Shown: positions 1,634 through 63,000 of the stretch, piece after piece | Layout of the letters: each line of letters begins with the position of its first letter | Numbering within the stretch: the first letter of the stretch is position 1 | Origin: Odontesthes bonariensis | Lineage: Eukaryota > Chordata > Actinopteri > Atheriniformes > Atherinopsidae | DNA length: 64,000 nucleotides | Assembly (NCBI RefSeq): GCF_027942865.1 | Contig: NC_134509.1 | Span: 28,714,197-28,778,196 of the forward strand | Direction of reading: 5' to 3' | Notes under the pieces: model-generated | Told to the model about the DNA's origin: nothing | What the model saw: the letters and a program-made list of their open reading frames with translations, nothing else | The model's database searches: none | Position numbers and translations under genes: made by a program

Positions 1634-2626
1634 ATGGACAGCCTGGACAGAGCTGAACTCTGCTACCTTCAGCTCCTGAGTTTGTCCTGCAGAGGTTTGA
1701 TGCGTCCTCGCTCCGAGGCTGTCCTCCTCTATGCACTGTTCTCCTCCATCTCTGTGCTCACAGTTGTTCTTAACTTGCTGGTTATCATGTCCATCTCCTA
1801 CTTCAGACAGCTCCACACACCCACCAATGTGCTGATGCTCTCCCTGGCCGTCGCAGACCTCCTTGTTGGGTTGCTGGTGATGCCGGTGGAAACGGTGCGA
1901 CTCATTGAGCCCTGCTGGCTGCTGGGTGAACTCATGTGTGCGCTCTCGTGCATCAACAGCTTCATTCTCACCTCAGCCTCTGTGGGGAACATGGTGCTCA
2001 TATCGATTGATTGTTATGTAGCAATTTGTTTTCCTCTGCAATACTCTGTAAAAATCACTCACAGCAGAGCAGAGGTGTCAGTGAGTCTCTGCTGGGCCTT
2101 TTCTCTCATCTACAACGGGCTCATCTTAAAGGACTATCTCAGAGGGCCAGACAGATACACCTCCTGCTACGGGGAGTGTTTAGTGGTGATCAGCTTTGTT
2201 TCTGGAACTGTCGACCTCATGTTCACTTTCTTTGTGCCTTGCTCAGTCATCCTGATTCTGTATATGAGAGTATTTGTTGTGGCTGTGTCTCAGGCTCGTG
2301 CCGCGCAGTTTCACATCACAGCTGCTGCAGCTGGTACAGCCAAAGTCCCAGCAAAGAAATCAGAAAGAAAAGCAGCCAGGACTCTTGGTATCGAGATATT
2401 GGTGTTCTTGTTAACTTTCTGTCCATATTACTATCCATCTCTAGCAGGACAGGACATCTCAAACAATGCTTCATCTTGGGCAAGTGTGTCCTGGCTGCTA
2501 TATTTAAATTCCTGTTTGAACCCACTGATATATGCTTTTTTCTATGCCTGGTTTAGAAAAGCGATCTCTTTAATCATCACCCTGAAAATACTAAAGCAGG
2601 ACTCCTCTCAGGTGAATATACTTTAA
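1634..2626 (+). CDS. Trace amine-associated receptor-like GPCR (single exon, altered microswitches)
   Basis: A 330-residue class A GPCR in one exon, the usual TAAR layout. Seven hydrophobic segments lie near residues 27-52, 63-85, 100-122, 142-161, 184-210, 245-268 and 280-303. TAAR hallmarks visible: RPRSEAVLLY before TM1, FRQLHTPTN after TM1, LAVADLLVGLLVMP in TM2, and the TM7 fingerprint NSCLNPLIYAFFYAWFRK (residues 292-309). Cys10 and Cys19 in the N-terminus and Cys102/Cys178 could form the TAAR disulfides. The TM3 aspartate of amine receptors is replaced (INSF..LTSAS), while Asp194 sits in TM5, the arrangement known for the fish clade that recognises amines through TM5. Oddities: DRY is DCY (126-128) and the TM6 CWxP tryptophan is Phe (LLTFCPYYYPS). 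No N-terminal N-glycosylation sequon is visible. Expected role is olfactory amine detection coupled to a G protein; whether this copy signals is open. Confidence 0.9.
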   Translation: MDSLDRAELCYLQLLSLSCRGLMRPRSEAVLLYALFSSISVLTVVLNLLVIMSISYFRQLHTPTNVLMLSLAVADLLVGLLVMPVETVRLIEPCWLLGELMCALSCINSFILTSASVGNMVLISIDCYVAICFPLQYSVKITHSRAEVSVSLCWAFSLIYNGLILKDYLRGPDRYTSCYGECLVVISFVSGTVDLMFTFFVPCSVILILYMRVFVVAVSQARAAQFHITAAAAGTAKVPAKKSERKAARTLGIEILVFLLTFCPYYYPSLAGQDISNNASSWASVSWLLYLNSCLNPLIYAFFYAWFRKAISLIITLKILKQDSSQVNIL

Positions 2627-35303: not shown

Positions 35304-36418
35304 TTTATTCATGCATGAAAATTCATTCACCAAATCGAAGAATTAGACGAACACACGAGTATTACAAACATGAGAGTTCTTAACACCATGACAAATATTG
35401 CATTCCTTACATCCGATTTCTTTTTCCCAATTTCTTCATCTTAAACTTATCTTATTTATCACAAGACTTCCAAGTGACATGTAGCAAATATTACAGATGG
35501 TATGAATCACATTTAATACAAATAAAGCAATCTTTGCACTGTTTTGTTATATGTCGTCACAGTTACTTTACTAGTGACAGCAACTCATTGAGTAAAATGC
35601 TGTAGAAGTCTGGGTTTCTACGTGAGACTTTTCATATGAAAAGAGGAATGGTAAGAAGGCACCTATTGCTTCCATACATGCAGCTCAGACTAAAACACAA
35701 AACAAAACAGGTCAAGAAACTAAAGGATAAAATATGGATAAAACATTGATGTTTTTCCTTGTCATGTAGTCAAATGTCAAATCCAGGTCAAAGACATCCC
35801 AAATGTTATTTTAATAGAAGATTAATGAAGTATTCCCGACTGTAGCAGCAGTGTTTAAGCACTCAAGTTGCATAATTAAATTTAGCAGTTTTAGCATTGT
35901 GCAGTTTTTGTTGTACATTACCGTTCTAAACTTTACATGGATGATGTAACCGTTATCATACAGAATGTATCCGATTACTCTTGTGCTCTTTCAGTTGTCA
36001 CAGTGTTATCGTGCAGCAGTCTAACTATTGGTAGGAAAAAGATAACATCAGTTGATGGTGGAACTTCAACAGCTCAAAGATGTTGTGTTGTTACACTGTC
36101 AGAATAAGTGAGGCATTGAAATGGTAATTCTCATTGCTTGACGTTGATACACAGGCTGATACAGGCTTTATACGCCATAAATAATGTGTGCGATGATTAG
36201 CATCAAATCAAGATGCAGGCTGAGAAAATAGGAACTAAAAGAGGAATGATAAGGAAAGAGGCTTATAAACAGCACAGAGAGGATCAGTCAGTGCGGTTAT
36301 GCTTCTGATGATGATCTGGTTCGGAGGTTAGCTGGAGATTTCCTCATGAAAACGCACTGCTGCTAACTGAGGTTCCTGACGGATCAAAGTCAGAGCTCGG
36401 ATAGATATATTCCGTCCT
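35304..36418 (-). other. micu3: micu3 3' UTR with candidate poly(A) signal
   Basis: A minus-strand AATAAA lies at 35304-35309, about 1.1 kb after the distal stop codon of micu3. No other canonical hexamer lies between it and the distal stop in a better position, and no coding sequence is seen between. The extent is inferred. Confidence 0.5.
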
Positions 36419-36517
36419 CTATGGCTTCTCCTTGAACCTCTTCCACAGCTTGTGCACATGTCTTCTGGCTTCAGCGCGGACACAGCTGGAGAAGGAGTCG
36501 TAGTGTTGGCCCTTCAC
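36419..36517 (-). CDS. micu3: micu3 alternative last exon, MICU2-like tail
   Basis: It also begins in phase 0 after a CAG acceptor and stays open for 32 codons: [19 protein letters not shown], then [13 protein letters not shown], then TAG. The pattern F-x-x-C-V-[RK]-x-E followed by V-x-x-[LV]-W-K parallels, from memory, the end of MICU2 (YWKCVKKE...VKEVWKQ) more than the short MICU3 tail. Skipping the 36810-36878 exon would give this C-terminus. Splicing is inferred, not shown. Confidence 0.6.
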   Translation of the reverse strand: MKGQHYDSFSSCVRAEARRHVHKLWKRFKEKP

Positions 36518-39500
36518 CTGGTGAACACAAATTTCTACTGTGAGTGTAAGACGTGATGAACAAATCCTGATCCATTCTGTTGATTAGGATAGGACACCAT
36601 CAGATGTGTGGCATGTTACCTCAACAATCTCAACATGCTACAGGTTAATGTGACATGTTAGAGAAGTCAAGAACCACCTCTAAATTAAAAGTAAACTTCT
36701 TTACCTGGATTATAATAGATTTTTAAGAAGCATGTTGAAACTTTAAAAAAATTCAATTCAACCAATTCTGTAAACACTTTTTGTTAATGGCTGTAGTTGT
36801 AAGAGATACTTATCTGCTCGCCAGCTCCTTCTTCAGGCAGGATCTAAAGGAGATGGCTCGCTCCACTGACTTATAGCCCTGAGATGTCAGTAGATGGTTG
36901 TCATGACAGAGAAAAAATAGTGGAGCAAGAAAACAAAAACAGATATAGAAGGACGGAGAGGGGGGGGTTGAGGAGAAAGTTTGACTTAAAAAGGAAATTC
37001 AGTACTCAGCCAAAGCAAAGACAGAGAAGGAAAGAAATTGAAAATTAGAACATTATTAAAAAGCCAAGACTGTGAGGCCAAGTAAGCATTAAAAAGCATT
37101 AAAAGAACGCCATAACACCATAAACAGAGCTACTGCTGGGCTTAATGTTAAGCTCTGCAGCGTGTAGGGATCCGAGCTGCAGTATCAAAACACACCACTG
37201 GGTGGCAGTGTGAGGTTTAAGAATAACACCAAGAAGTTAATCAGCGTGACTTCGTGTTTGGAGTTTTTATCATTTCAAGTGATTCACTGAAGGAGGAACC
37301 AGTGAGGACTGTTGCTCTATATAGCTCAGACATTATGTTTAATTAGAAATAATCGGCAATATTGTAAATATTTAGTTTAAACTACCAGTTGTTTATCAGA
37401 CTACAGTTTTTGTGACTTTTAATTGATAGATTTCCCTCTACACAGTCTAGATTTAGAACAGGTTGACTATACTTTCACAATAAAACATTTTTTTGTTAAC
37501 CAAATAACTCATTTGCCACAATGACCTGATCCTATTTGCAGAGGCAAGGGAGAGAGCAGCTTTTTTTGTTTTAGTCCTTTTAAAATATATTGAATCAATA
37601 TTTGTTTTGTGTTTTCTGTTGCTTGCTTGACCTCTGAGTCTCAAAAAGACTCTCACTATTTCCTCATTTTATCATTGCTGTGGCTATGATTTGATCTTTT
37701 TCAAAAAGGCCCACGAGTACTTTTTTCTAAACAAGCTGAAAATTCCTCACCCTGGCTCCCCTGTGCAGCCGGTCCTTCATGATGCCGATGAACTCCTTGT
37801 AGGACAGCTGGTCATCGTGATCAACGTCAAAGATCTTGTAGATGGTGTTCACGAGGTGACGTGTCAGCTTGAGGCCCGTGGCCACATACACTGCTCTTGC
37901 AAACTCATCTAGCAGGACAGAAGGTTAAAACCATTACTTTGGCTCTTACTTTACAGAAACTTTCAGCACCTGCAGATTCAACCAGTTTTTACTACCTTGT
38001 CCAATGGAACGTGAAGCAAAGTTGTACATCTGCATGGCAATGGCAAAGTCTTCCAGGTTGTTGAGAAATTGGAAGAATGATCTGAACTCATCAAATGTGA
38101 TTCCCTGAAACATGAAAATAAACCACACGTGAACCAACCATACAATGCCAGAGAGAGAAGAGTACCGAAGAACATGTCATCCTCTGGAGGAAGAAGCTTG
38201 AAAATGAGAATAATGACTTTTTTAGGCTGTTGCAGACTTTTTTAGCCAGTATCAAAGGGACCATTTGTGCATAAAACATTCCTTGTGGCACATTTGTCCT
38301 GTTGTCGGGAAAAAAAGGAAAAACTCATGCTATCAGTCCGTAACCAAGTGATTCCATGAACTAGTCCCATTAATGACAGAATATGTCATTAATGACAGGG
38401 TTGCATGCATAAAATGAAATAAGTTAAACAGCAACCAACTTTTACGAATTGAAAATGGGTTCAGATGTCTTGTGGTTGCACATTGTAGATAAAGGAAAAG
38501 AGCGAGACCTGATAATTATCTCCTCGATATGATATTAAAATGAATGACGGAGCTCATGTGACCAAACTTAAAGCTTATAAAGGATGTCCGTTGCACCACA
38601 TGCTTTTTGATGTGAACAGCTCAAACCTGTAACAAATAATTTAATTAAGAAATTCCAATAAACACATTTAAGCAAATAAAGAAAAGCAGTACAGTGAATT
38701 CACATGAGGAAATGCAGATAAAGACGAAGATGACAATGAATTTACCTAAAGAAAAAAAAAAAGAAAAGGAAAAACTGACAGATTGCAGGTTGTGTATTTC
38801 TATGAGGCAGAGACAAACCTCCTGCTTCTTCCACAGCATGAAAAGAGAGGAGGGACAGAAATAGAGTTGGGTTGCATCCGGACACAAGGATGACATGCCA
38901 AAGAATAGCTAGCTTGCTAGCATAGCTTGACAGTTGCTACAAAGATACATAGAGTAACAGCAAACACACCAACAAACGTTCAAATGTAGCTGAAAAGGCA
39001 GTCAAGTGTGTGTTTGTGTGAATGTTTGTGTGAGGTCAAGTGAAGCGAAGCTGCGCTGAAGTGTGGAGAGCCACAACAGCCACAGGTGGAGTCAACAGTG
39101 GAAAATTATAGGTGCTGTAGATTGCTGGAAGGCAGGATCACTCATTGAGGAGCAGAAAAGAAATTTCACAGATGGGTGAAGATCAGGAAATATATCTCAT
39201 GTTATCGCCAGAATAACCATCTCAAGTGCTGTCTCCATGTTCTATACCAAGTAAAAAAAACTGTGTGCACGTATGCGCTGCACCTTTTCATCAGGAATAC
39301 ACTGGCGCACGTTCTCCAGGTAGGCACTGATGTTTTCCACATTGGTGAAGCGCAGCAGGATTTTGGCAAAGTCTTCCTCGCTGATGGTGGTCATCCCCTT
39401 GGAGTAGGTCAGAAACTCTATTTCCAACAGCTCTGTCTGGAGGTTATCCATAAACCTGAGATGAGGAAAGGAGGAGAAAGTGAGGTAGGAATAAAAAAGA

Positions 39501-52794: not shown

Positions 52795-55700
52795 TGTTTG
52801 GATAAGCAAGTGAAAAATGTTTTAGGAGGAGGGCCTTTCTTGCCTCTGGCACATTTAGAATCTTTGTCGATCCATGTCAGCTCTCTGTCCTTTTTTCTTT
52901 TTTCACTTTCTGTCTGATAGCTTAGATAGTTCAGGGTGACTCGCCTGAGTGTTATGGAAGACTGCTCTCCCTTTGGTGTGTATGTATGCATGAGTGTGTG
53001 TGAAGGTGAACATGACACCAGTTGGAGCCACTGTGAGCCTTGTGTTTTGCTAATGCTTGACTGCTTTGTGTTGGGGAGCTGGTTTGGAACTGAATTCTCT
53101 TTTCCCAATGTAGCCTGAGCTCTGCAAAGACCAGAACATACACTCTAAATCTGCTCAGGTTTCTTCATACAGTCTGTGTGTTTATACTCCCATGCTTTCA
53201 GTGACTTTTTAATGAATGTAAGGCGGGTGAATGTTGATTTTCAGGTGGTAGTTATCAAGGGGAAAAAACTGAGAATGAAGAACATTAATTTACAATGTCG
53301 ATTTTCTCATTTAAAACTATCAAAAACCATTCCACTACCTCTGAGTTTTGACATTTAAGCATTTTTGTTTTTGTCAGACTTAAAGTGTGCGAATCTCTGG
53401 TCGTGCTTTAAACTGGTTCAAGTCCTATCTGGAGGACAGGAAATATTTTGTTGAAATTGGTAACTGTGTCTCAGACCAAATGGCTATGACCTGTGGGGTT
53501 CCCCAGGGGTCAATCCTGGGACCCGTATTGTTCAATCTGTACATGCTTCCACTAGGCCAGCTAATACGCAGCTATAATGTGTCCTACCACAATTATGCAG
53601 ATGACACTCAGATCTACGTGTCACTGACGGCAGGAGAACACGGGCCTATAGATACACTGTGTCGCTGCATCGAACAGATCAGTGTGTGGATGCAAAACAA
53701 TTTCCTCCAGCTAAACTCAGACAAAACTGAAATCATTGTCTGTGGCCCACAGAAACAAAGAGAAAGTGTTATCAGTCACCTTGAGACTCTCTCTCTAAAA
53801 CCTAACTATCAAGTTAGAAATCTCGGGATAATATTGGACTCAGACCTGAACTTTAACAGCCACATTAAATCTGTAACAGCAGCAGCTTTTTACCATCTAA
53901 AAAACATTGCCAGAATCAAAGGAATAGTGTCTAAACCAGACTTAGAGAGACTGATCCATGCGTTTGTCTCCAGCAGGTTAGACTACTGTAACGGCCTGCT
54001 CACTGGGCTCTCTAAACGGGCTGTAAGACAGCTGCAGTACATCCAGAACGCTGCTGCTCGAGTCCTGACTAGAACCAGGAAATACGACCACATTAGTCCA
54101 GTGCTCAGGTCTCTGCACTGGCTTCCTGTCGCTCAGAGAATAGACTTTAAAACAGCTCTGCTTGTGTACAAGTCTCTTCACGGTCAAGCGCCAAAGTACA
54201 TCTCTGACATGTTAGAGCCATATGAACCAACTCGGGCTCTGAGAACCTCAGGGAGGGGTCTCCTGCTGGTGCCCAGAGTCAGGACTAAACAAGGTGAGGC
54301 TGCGTTTCAGTTTTATGCTCCTAAAATCTGGAACAGCCTTCCAGAAGATGTCAGACAGGCCTCAACTCTGACAATGTTTAAATCCAGGCTGAAAACAGTT
54401 CTATTTAGCTGTGCATATGACACCTGAAAGTATTTTATCTGCACTCTTCACTTTTTAATTACTTAATGATTATTTTAATGGGTTTTAAATTTCTTTCTTT
54501 TTTAATTTCTTTCTTTTATTTTTTTTATTTCTTTTTAATGGTTTTATTGCCTTCTTGTGATTTTATGTAGCTGTAAAGCACTTTGAATTGCCCTGTGTAT
54601 GAATTGTGCTCTATAAATAAAATTGCCTTGCCTTGCCTTGCCTAATCAGTATTATCCACGATATGAAGCAGAAGTTACACAGAGGATTTTAATGTCTCCA
54701 TGTTATAACCTTTTGCTTCCACTTGGGGGCAGAAAATACACTCTGAGGCTTGCTCCTCTTGGTTGAATTTGAGCGATCTTTGTTGGTCCTTTAGCTTTGC
54801 TCTCTTGTGGAGAAAAAGCTGCTTTATGTTGGAAACTGTCAAAATAATGATGATTGTGCAGTGCAGCTATTGTCTGCTTGTCACCTGTGCTTCTTTGCTC
54901 TTTATCACTAACTTTCAATCAGCATTAGACCTATGTCTGTCATCATCTCTGATGGCTATGCGTTAAGTTTTGAGAAGAATGCATGCAATCTTTTCCGCAT
55001 GGATTGAGTACCCGAAATTCTTCACTCTGCATGGGGTGTGATCAATGCAGACAGATGCCTACTTGCAACAATAAGCTGCCCCAAGTGAGAAATGGTGAAG
55101 GAAGGGCATCCAGCGTAAAACATGCGCCAAATCGATGAAGAGGAGATTGACTCGCTATGGCGACCCCTAATAAAAGGGAGAGGCCGAAAGAAGAAGAAGA
55201 AGAAGAAGAAGAAGAAGAAGAAGAAGAAGCAGTGAGAAGTGGTGAGCTCCTTCTAATTGTCAGCAGGGGGATGGAAAATGGTGATGTTTTGTATAAAAGT
55301 CTACAAGGAAATTAGCCCATTTTACACTTTATGCATTACATCAGCAAAATATTCCTAATAACTTTTTGTTCTGAGTAACTAGTTTCAAGTCTTTTTTTAA
55401 AAAAAACAATGTGTTTTGCAAATAACAATACAATTTAGGGTAAAATAAGACTATAAAGGTGAATATGCAATAGGTGTGCATAGTTGGCACGTGCATCAGT
55501 GTGATAACATCTCATCTAGTTTAAGAAAAATAAATGCAGATGGAAAAAATGGTAAATAACAGACCTGAAAATGGTAATTCCGTAACCAGAGATATCTGGT
55601 AAATCTGATAGGCTAGAAAAAATTCTGCATGTACTTCTCATAAATAGCTAAGCCGAGTTTTTTGTTTAATGGTGTATTACTTTTCAGGTCTATTTCAATA

Positions 55701-60000: not shown

Positions 60001-63000
60001 GAAGTCAGCTGAATGACAAGGATTTTCCATCGATACGAGATAACAATGCCAGGAGTAATCTGGCTCAGGGAGCATAACATATCATTTTCAATCATGGACT
60101 GGCTACCTCAGAGCATAGATCTTAACCCCACTGAAAATCTTTCCCATCATCAATCATGGGGGAAAATAAATGCAACTCTAGGTGCAAATAAATGTTACGA
60201 TATTGCATAAGCTTGACTTTTTTTTTCTGGACAAGCAGTGTATCAATATTATTCCAAATGTTAACATGTTGACAGTATTTATGCTGCATGGTACCACTTT
60301 CTTGTTTCCTAGAGGATTTCAGGCCTGGCAGTAGAGTGTTACATCTCAACAGCAGACCACAAGTACAGTGCCTTGCGAAAGTATTCGGCCCCCTTGAACT
60401 TTTCAACCTTTTGCCACATTTCAGGCTTCAATCATAAAGATACATAATTTGAATTTTTTGTGAAGAATCAACAATAAGTGGGACACAATTGTGAAGTGGA
60501 ATGAAATTTATTGGATGTGTCAAACTTTAACAAATAAAAAACTGAAAAGTGGGGCGTGCAATATTATTCGGCCCCCTTGCGTTAATACTTTGTAGCGCCG
60601 CCTTTTGCTGCAATTACAGCTGCAAGTCGCTATGTCTTTATCAGTTTTGCACATCGAGAGACTGAAATTCTTGCCCATTCCACCTTGCAAAACAGCTCGA
60701 GCTCAGTGAGGTTGGATGCAGAGCGTTTGTGAACAGCAGTCTTCAGCTCTTTCCACAGATTCGATTGGATTCAGGTCTGGACTTTGACTTGGCCATTCCA
60801 ACACCTGGATACGTTTATTTGTGAACCATTCCATTGTAGATTTGGCTTTATGTTTTGGATCATTGTCTTGTTGGAAGATAAATCTCCGTCCCAGTCTCAG
60901 GTCTCTTGCAGACTCCAACAGGTTTTCTTCCAGAATGGTCCTGTACTTGGCCCCATCCATCTTCCCATCAATTTTGACCATCTTCGCTGTCCCTGCTGAC
61001 GAAAAGCAGCCCCGAATCATGATGCTGCCACCACCATGTTTGACAGTGTGGGGATGGTGTGTTCAGGGTGATGAGCTGTGTTGCTTTTACGCCAAACATA
61101 TCGTTTTGCATTGTGGCCAAACAGTTCGATTTTGGTTTCATCTGACCAGAACACCTTCTTCCACATGTTTGGTGTGTCTCCCAGGTGGCTTGTGGCAAAC
61201 TTTAAACAAGACTTTTTATGGATATCTTTGAGAAATTGCTTTCTTCTTGCCACTCTTCCATAAAGGCTAGACTTGTGCAGTGTACGACTGATTGTTGTCC
61301 TATGGACAGACTCAGCTGTAGATCTCTGCAGTTCATCCAGAGTGATCATGGGCCTCTTGGCTGCATCTCTGATCAGTCTTCTCCTTGTTCGAGATGAAAG
61401 TTTAGAGGGACGGCCGGGTCTTGGTAGATTTGCAGTGGTCTGATACTCCTTCCATTTCAATATGATTGCTTGCACAGTGCTCCTTGTGATGTTTAAAGCT
61501 TGGGAAATCTTTTTGTTTGCTGCACTGAAAGTAAAGGGGCCGAATAATATTGCACGCCCCACTTTTCAGTTTTTTATTTGTTAAAAAAGTTTGACATAGC
61601 CAATAAATTTCATTCCACTTCACGATTGTGTCCCACTTGTTGTTGATTCTTCACAAAAAATTTAAATTTTATATAGTTATGTTTGAAGCCTGAAATGTGG
61701 CAAAAGGTTGAAAAGTTCAAGGGGGCCGAATACTTTCTCAAGGCACTGTATATCCCACCTTGTCTGTTCTATACATTCACTAACAATACCTATAATACAT
61801 TTTAAATAATTCTACATAAAAGACCTTTACCTAAACCATAGTCAAAAATTGTATTTAGACTCTGCAGTGAATAAAAAGTAGCAGATGTAACATGCAACAG
61901 ATGTCTGACTGCATCATGGAGGGAGCGGTAGAAAGAAGGATTTAAAGTGTGTCTCCCACCTGTTTGGTCAGGGACCTCCAGGGCTTCTTGTCTGCCAGGG
62001 ATCAAGACAAAAGAGGAGAGAAAAAGAAGGGAAAGAGGAGAAGAGAGTTTGGGTGGGCTCGGTCAGATAGCATCTGTATGATCTAGAAATGGGTCTTAAT
62101 GTGCAGAGTACAGTCACAACATACACACACACAAACATACACACACAGGCACACTCACTTTATATATACTCATCATCACAGGCCCATTTGTACTGTCTAA
62201 AGTGTACCGTGCTTGCCTTTGTAGTTTGTGGAATGTCCCAGTAAAAGCACATACTACTTTTGTTCTGTTTTATACAACAAAGTTCATCTAATTCAACTTC
62301 AAAGGGGGCATTAGAGTATGTCGGCTGCCGAGAGGGTACGAGCGGCTGTATCGTATGACAGCGAGCCAAGAGTAGATGTAAACACACACACATACAGGTG
62401 CACAGTTTGCACGCAATTCAATCAAATGCCCACTGAAAAAGAGAAACATCTTTTCTTTGTTTGTGGTAACCTCAATGTGTACTGACATTTTTAGACCAGT
62501 GGTCATACAGGAGTAATTTCAGTTTATTGCCCAGTTTAGATATTTACAGGATAAGAGAGGGTACATGAGAGCAAATGGAATGTCAGTCTGTGTGTGTCTG
62601 ACTAACATTGACCTCAGACTAAACAATAGCTGTAAAGCCATCTGCTTTGAGGCTGGCTGGCTGGCTGGGGCTAATCTGTTACAACTGGCAGTAAGCTGAC
62701 AGAAACTGCAGATATATGCTTAAATTCATCATTTTTAAGTGTTTCAAGACGTGGTAAAATAAAAAATCTCTCATAACAAACAGTAACGTCCACACAGAGA
62801 AAACAAATGCAGATCAGAGATGAAGCTCAACAAACTTTCACCATTCATCCATTTTAAACAAGATTGCAATAAACTCCTTCAGTAAATAGATTTGTATCGT
62901 TGCTCAAAATGTGTTGTCGAAGTAATGAAATAACTCAAACAAAAGTTTAAAGAAATGTTCAATGTCTTCATTGACCAATCTCATGAGAAAATATGAAAAA

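Follow-up and report, generated by a model that had tools for sequence, protein, structure and literature searches.

The 3′ end of a micu3 gene, which lies on the minus strand of the window (the whole 64,000-nucleotide stretch analysed here, from contig C4 of a 945 Mb genome), carries two successive candidate C-terminal exons, one with a standard MICU3 tail and, farther downstream, one with a longer tail resembling that of MICU2. A single donor (37751) faces two in-frame acceptors (36878 and 36517), and an intact coding end stands behind each of them (Table 1). Judged by their sequence, by where they lie, by phase and by codon composition, both tails resemble real MICU-type C-terminal exons, and both are probably used as alternatives. 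How they would be used is less certain, and we lean slightly towards two tandem MICU C-helix exons whose acceptors compete within one terminal region; what speaks against this is that the far exon was not found at a second micu3 copy of the same genome (on contig C18), and that its acceptor is weak. The coordinates and translations under which the two exons had been reported in the preliminary description were correct on re-reading.

Table 1. Features at the 3′ end of micu3 (positions in the window; splice scores in brackets)
Feature	Position	Strand	Remarks
Second EF-hand exon of micu3 (EF exon)	37751..37908	−	Phase-0 donor at 37751; best match MICU3
Near C-terminal exon, standard MICU3 tail and TAA	36810..36878	−	Begins at 36878 after CAG; 22 codons; TAA at 36812-36810; GT abuts the stop
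Inter-tail stretch	36518..36809	−	GC 0.34; candidate donors after 36705 (7.9) and 36620 (6.3)
Far C-terminal exon and TAG	36419..36517	−	Begins at 36517 after CAG; 32 codons; TAG at 36421-36419; weak acceptor (2.3)
Candidate shared poly(A) signal, AATAAA	35304..35309	−	GT-rich stretch after it; by inspection only

The joined translations of three micu3 exons (146 residues) match MICU3 of the PDB (6agi) at 5.5e-78, PDB MICU2 at 5.7e-45 and PDB MICU1 at 3.5e-21; along its EF-hand part the gene thus matches MICU3 above MICU1 and MICU2, and to judge from these alignments it is MICU3. The near tail is of the MICU3 kind, being short, with a G-Y-K start, a Cys and K-K-E-L. The tables of the PDB give the molecule and not the species; its MICU chains are presumably human. 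The MICU3 chain (6agi) stops at GYKT, and beyond this point the near tail is set against what we take to be the remainder of the human MICU3 tail. When searched in the genome at E 0.01, the EF exon is found at three places, namely itself, a copy on contig C18 (75% identical) and a copy on contig C21 (49%). Joined with its tail, the C18 copy has MICU3 as its best match (2.8e-21) and represents a second micu3, and the C21 copy is micu2 (8.5e-32). The near exon of the C18 copy encodes GVRAEEKFISFKFCMKKELSGK, followed by TAG; it is 69 bases long in both micu3 copies, and 28 of the 33 bases of its core are equal between them. Searched against viral contigs, the EF exon gave one distant EF-hand match (L010).

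Splice sites were scored with generic weight matrices, which rank sites but are not calibrated. On this scale, the donor of the EF exon (AGG/GTGAGG) reaches 8.9 and the near acceptor 5.5. The score of the far acceptor, which has AGs inside its pyrimidine tract, is reached by 20% of the AGs on the minus strand of the window. The same site (CACCAG/GTGAAG, 36518) doubles as a good donor, with a score of 7.6. A scan for ten poly(A) hexamers gave no hit between 36810 and 36518, in agreement with the earlier statement that the near exon has no poly(A) signal of its own, and the first AATAAA or ATTAAA downstream of the near tail lies at 35815. As no poly(A) signal separates the tails, the simplest arrangement is one terminal region in which the acceptors compete, and the poor donor found behind the near exon, considered below, also fits such a shared region.

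The near exon had been proposed to act as a cassette, ending at its stop and spliced to the far exon, which would then serve as 3′ UTR, skipping of the near exon leading to the far tail. The best argument for this arrangement is the GT right after the stop in both micu3 copies, which in the C18 copy forms a donor scoring 5.7 (TAG/GTAACA), and the equal length of the near exon in both copies and the lack of a poly(A) signal in the inter-tail stretch speak for it as well. Yet a stop is followed by GT by chance about once in sixteen cases, and in the window the resulting donor (TAA/GTATCT) scores only 1.1, a value reached by 30% of the GTs on the minus strand. The sequences flanking the near stop on its 3′ side are not alike between the two copies (13, against a shuffled mean of 12.1), and we therefore discarded a conserved intron flank as a sign of a donor at this place. 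Moreover, at the C18 copy no far exon was found that could receive such a splice, and an AATAAA follows 87 bases past the last sense codon. Of the original proposal, the GT after the stop thus stands, while the donor that it forms in the window is weak and a better one is found at 36705, 105 bases beyond the near stop. By the usual rule, a junction at this distance past a stop would expose a transcript to decay, a fate that the near form would face if the donor at 36705 were used. Altogether we favour competing acceptors and regard the cassette as the less likely arrangement, indeed as an unlikely one.

To recognise tails of this type we used a core motif (aromatic, one or two residues, Cys, hydrophobic, basic, any, Glu) that was drafted after the MICU tails had been seen. 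Of 5604 AG-preceded frames with >22 open codons, counted over the window and 13 other loci, 6 contain it. They correspond to four places, namely the near and far exons of the window, the C18 near exon and the micu2 tail. The motif revealed no third tail in the window and no second tail in the ∼18 kb behind micu2 or behind the C18 copy. Behind the latter, many coding-like frames are found, none of them with the motif. Protein alignment did not find the far exon at the C18 copy either (20 kb stretch, ∼18 kb of it downstream of the stop), and the DNA of the far exon has no match in the 7 kb behind that copy (score 22; shuffles reach up to 29). Conservation of both exons, which the preliminary description had named as support for a switch, was therefore not seen in the sole relative tested, the C18 copy, which shares the near exon only. 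The near tail is thus the form that the two micu3 copies share, and the far tail may be special to the micu3 copy of the window or have been lost in the other. Together with the weak far acceptor, this pattern would also suit a far exon that was once coding and has recently been abandoned, being now just 3′ UTR of the near form. We hold this to be less probable still than the cassette, as the frame, the stop, the acceptor AG, the Cys motif and the coding-like GC3 are all intact.

The far frame looks coding by its composition, and on all the evidence it very likely is coding, or was so until recently. Its GC content is 0.55 and its GC3 0.75, compared to 0.54 and 0.77 for the EF exon and 0.55 and 0.73 for the near exon, and GC3 is 0.36 in each of the flanks before and after the far frame. 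Among 1624 AG-preceded frames of the window open for >30 codons, which overlap and are not independent of each other, 14 reach these values of GC and GC3; two of them are the far exon, nine cluster at 1.8-2.0 kb on both strands of a receptor-like gene, and three are found elsewhere. The GC-rich open frame of that cluster (∼1811-2005, plus strand) presumably encodes a rhodopsin-type receptor akin to the trace-amine receptors.

When the far tail is joined to the EF exon, the alignment with PDB MICU2 (6xqn) extends as far as the W-K close to the MICU2 end, and its best stretch reaches 65.6 bits, versus 54.7 for the near tail. The two tails were also compared alone with MICU2. The far tail has an SW score of 42 with the printed PDB MICU2 tail, a value that 2 of 5000 shuffles attain (shuffle maximum 43), and of 37 with a second PDB MICU2 tail (14 of 5000 shuffles), while for the near tail the score is 25 with each of them (∼3% of shuffles). 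Among 2195 AG-preceded frames of the window open for >24 codons, the far frame also comes first against the printed tail (next other frame, 30), scores of ∼40 being possible by chance with a basic peptide like the far one, as a wrong-strand frame reached 41 (1509 frames). The elements held in common with PDB MICU2 are C-V-basic-x-E followed by V-x-x-x-W-K, and by inspection the Cys-Val-basic-x-Glu core stands 14 versus 15 residues after HRG in the far tail/MICU2 comparison. The last exon of micu2 in the same genome, VQPHNSVLGYWKCVKRETLKGAQEALGHTGSPI, resembles the far exon in intron position, in phase 0 (both as in micu3) and in its first residue, Val, but differs in its setting, as the far exon belongs to micu3 and follows a full MICU3 tail. 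In this comparison the SW score is only 19, with CVxxE alone aligned, and we therefore call the far tail MICU2-like and not a MICU2 exon; the resemblance to MICU2 noted earlier thus held for two PDB sequences and was not clear for the micu2 of the genome itself. That micu2 tail (L013 1807-1908) lacks the V-x-x-x-W-K end of PDB MICU2, indicating that MICU2 proteins do not all retain this helix end. The near and far peptides have S-F-x-S-C in common (SW 29, 0.7% of shuffles), whereas their exons show no likeness in DNA (13; shuffles reach up to 26), so that any duplication between them would have to be old. A random open frame with a random likeness to MICU2 is a very improbable explanation of the far exon, for although the frame is short, has no PDB match at E 10 when its peptide is taken alone and reaches only the above score of 19 with the micu2 of its own genome, its GC3, motif, place, phase and MICU2 alignment coincide, and we rejected this explanation on GC3, motif and MICU2 alignment jointly, each of which is weaker alone.

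If the acceptors compete, as we prefer to think, the near exon would provide the short MICU3 form, and the far exon would have kept or regained a long, amphipathic, MICU2-like form. The pair would have arisen when a tail exon was duplicated long ago, or the far exon would be an older tail retained behind a newer one. Splicing would pick the acceptor at 36878 or the one at 36517, and both transcripts would use a common poly(A) site. Use of the former would end translation at the near stop and turn the far exon into 3′ UTR, and skipping of it would allow the far tail to be made.

Both proteins would keep the Cys of the C-helix, behind which 20 residues follow in the far tail and 8 in the near one. 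According to the accessible text of two studies, this Cys is present in all human MICUs (PMC7055370), and Cys 413 of the MICU2 C-helix forms the heterodimer disulphide with Cys 463 of MICU1 (PMC4958273). As both tails keep it, the partner bound by this disulphide may stay the same, which weakens this route to the altered choice of dimer partner suggested in the preliminary description. Predicted alone with AlphaFold, the far tail forms one helix (residues 4-29) with a mean pLDDT of 85.5 (67 for residues 1-10; 95 and 97 for residues 11-30), which is permissive evidence, lone peptides being easily predicted as helical. Its hydrophobic moment is 0.53 and its charge +6 (near tail, 0.29 and +4); the far tail is thus predicted to be helical as well as amphipathic. 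What changes between the tails is likely the length of the helix and its contact with the membrane. In MICU1, the amphipathic C-helix lies at the membrane surface, flanked by EMRE subunits, and MICU1 without it binds MCU less well (accessible sections of PMC7442490). By analogy with this role, the mostly basic amphipathic helix that follows the Cys in the far form might tighten the hold of the protein on the inner membrane or on MCU-EMRE. The accessible part of one study found no effect of the MICU2 C-helix on the conformation of MICU2 (PMC4958273), which lowers the expectation of a function for the far tail. MICU3 raises mitochondrial calcium uptake in brain, and less so in muscle (available text of PMC8909990). 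We tentatively propose that some fish might use tandem tails to switch between two MICU3 proteins, with the short MICU3 tail or with a full MICU2-like membrane helix, so that the MICU1-MICU3 dimer would be held at the membrane either loosely or tightly, a choice kept in one micu3 duplicate and lost, or never gained, in the other.

We found no C-terminal splice choice of MICU3 in the open literature searched, including the accessible parts of PMC6471419, PMC8909990, PMC7206026 and PMC6506686. One of the closest known parallels is MICU1.1, a micro-exon form of MICU1 in which splice choice also alters a MICU protein by a few residues; unlike the tails described here, its micro-exon adds four residues and leaves the C-terminus unchanged (accessible text of PMC8909990). 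Drosophila MICU3, with its isoforms A and C, has more than one coding isoform (available portion of PMC6506686). The gene, the EF exon and the near tail are those of vertebrate MICU3, from which the locus differs in the second tail exon behind them, for which no counterpart was found behind the C18 micu3 copy.

Transposon-type frames lie within the span of micu3 (60703-61565, minus strand; 53384-54427, plus strand), which we take to be Tc1/mariner-like transposase frames and a LINE-like reverse transcriptase frame. Some 6.1 kb past the stop of the C18 micu3, a first-exon-like frame that starts with MAPSGSRSIKWGCWRVLYWIPVLFIALIVAWSYYAYVFQLCI (L014 7840-7966) is followed by a donor; it presumably corresponds to the first exon of a zdhhc2-type gene, and gave zero Pfam matches. 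Below micu3, nine matches to U3 snoRNA (Rfam RF00012) are arranged in tandem on the minus strand between 20903 and 34055 (scan of 20001-64000), mostly spaced by ∼1.4 or 2.4 kb. A 300-base stretch between matches is 100% identical in six units, which we read as a sign of recent amplification or homogenisation of the array.
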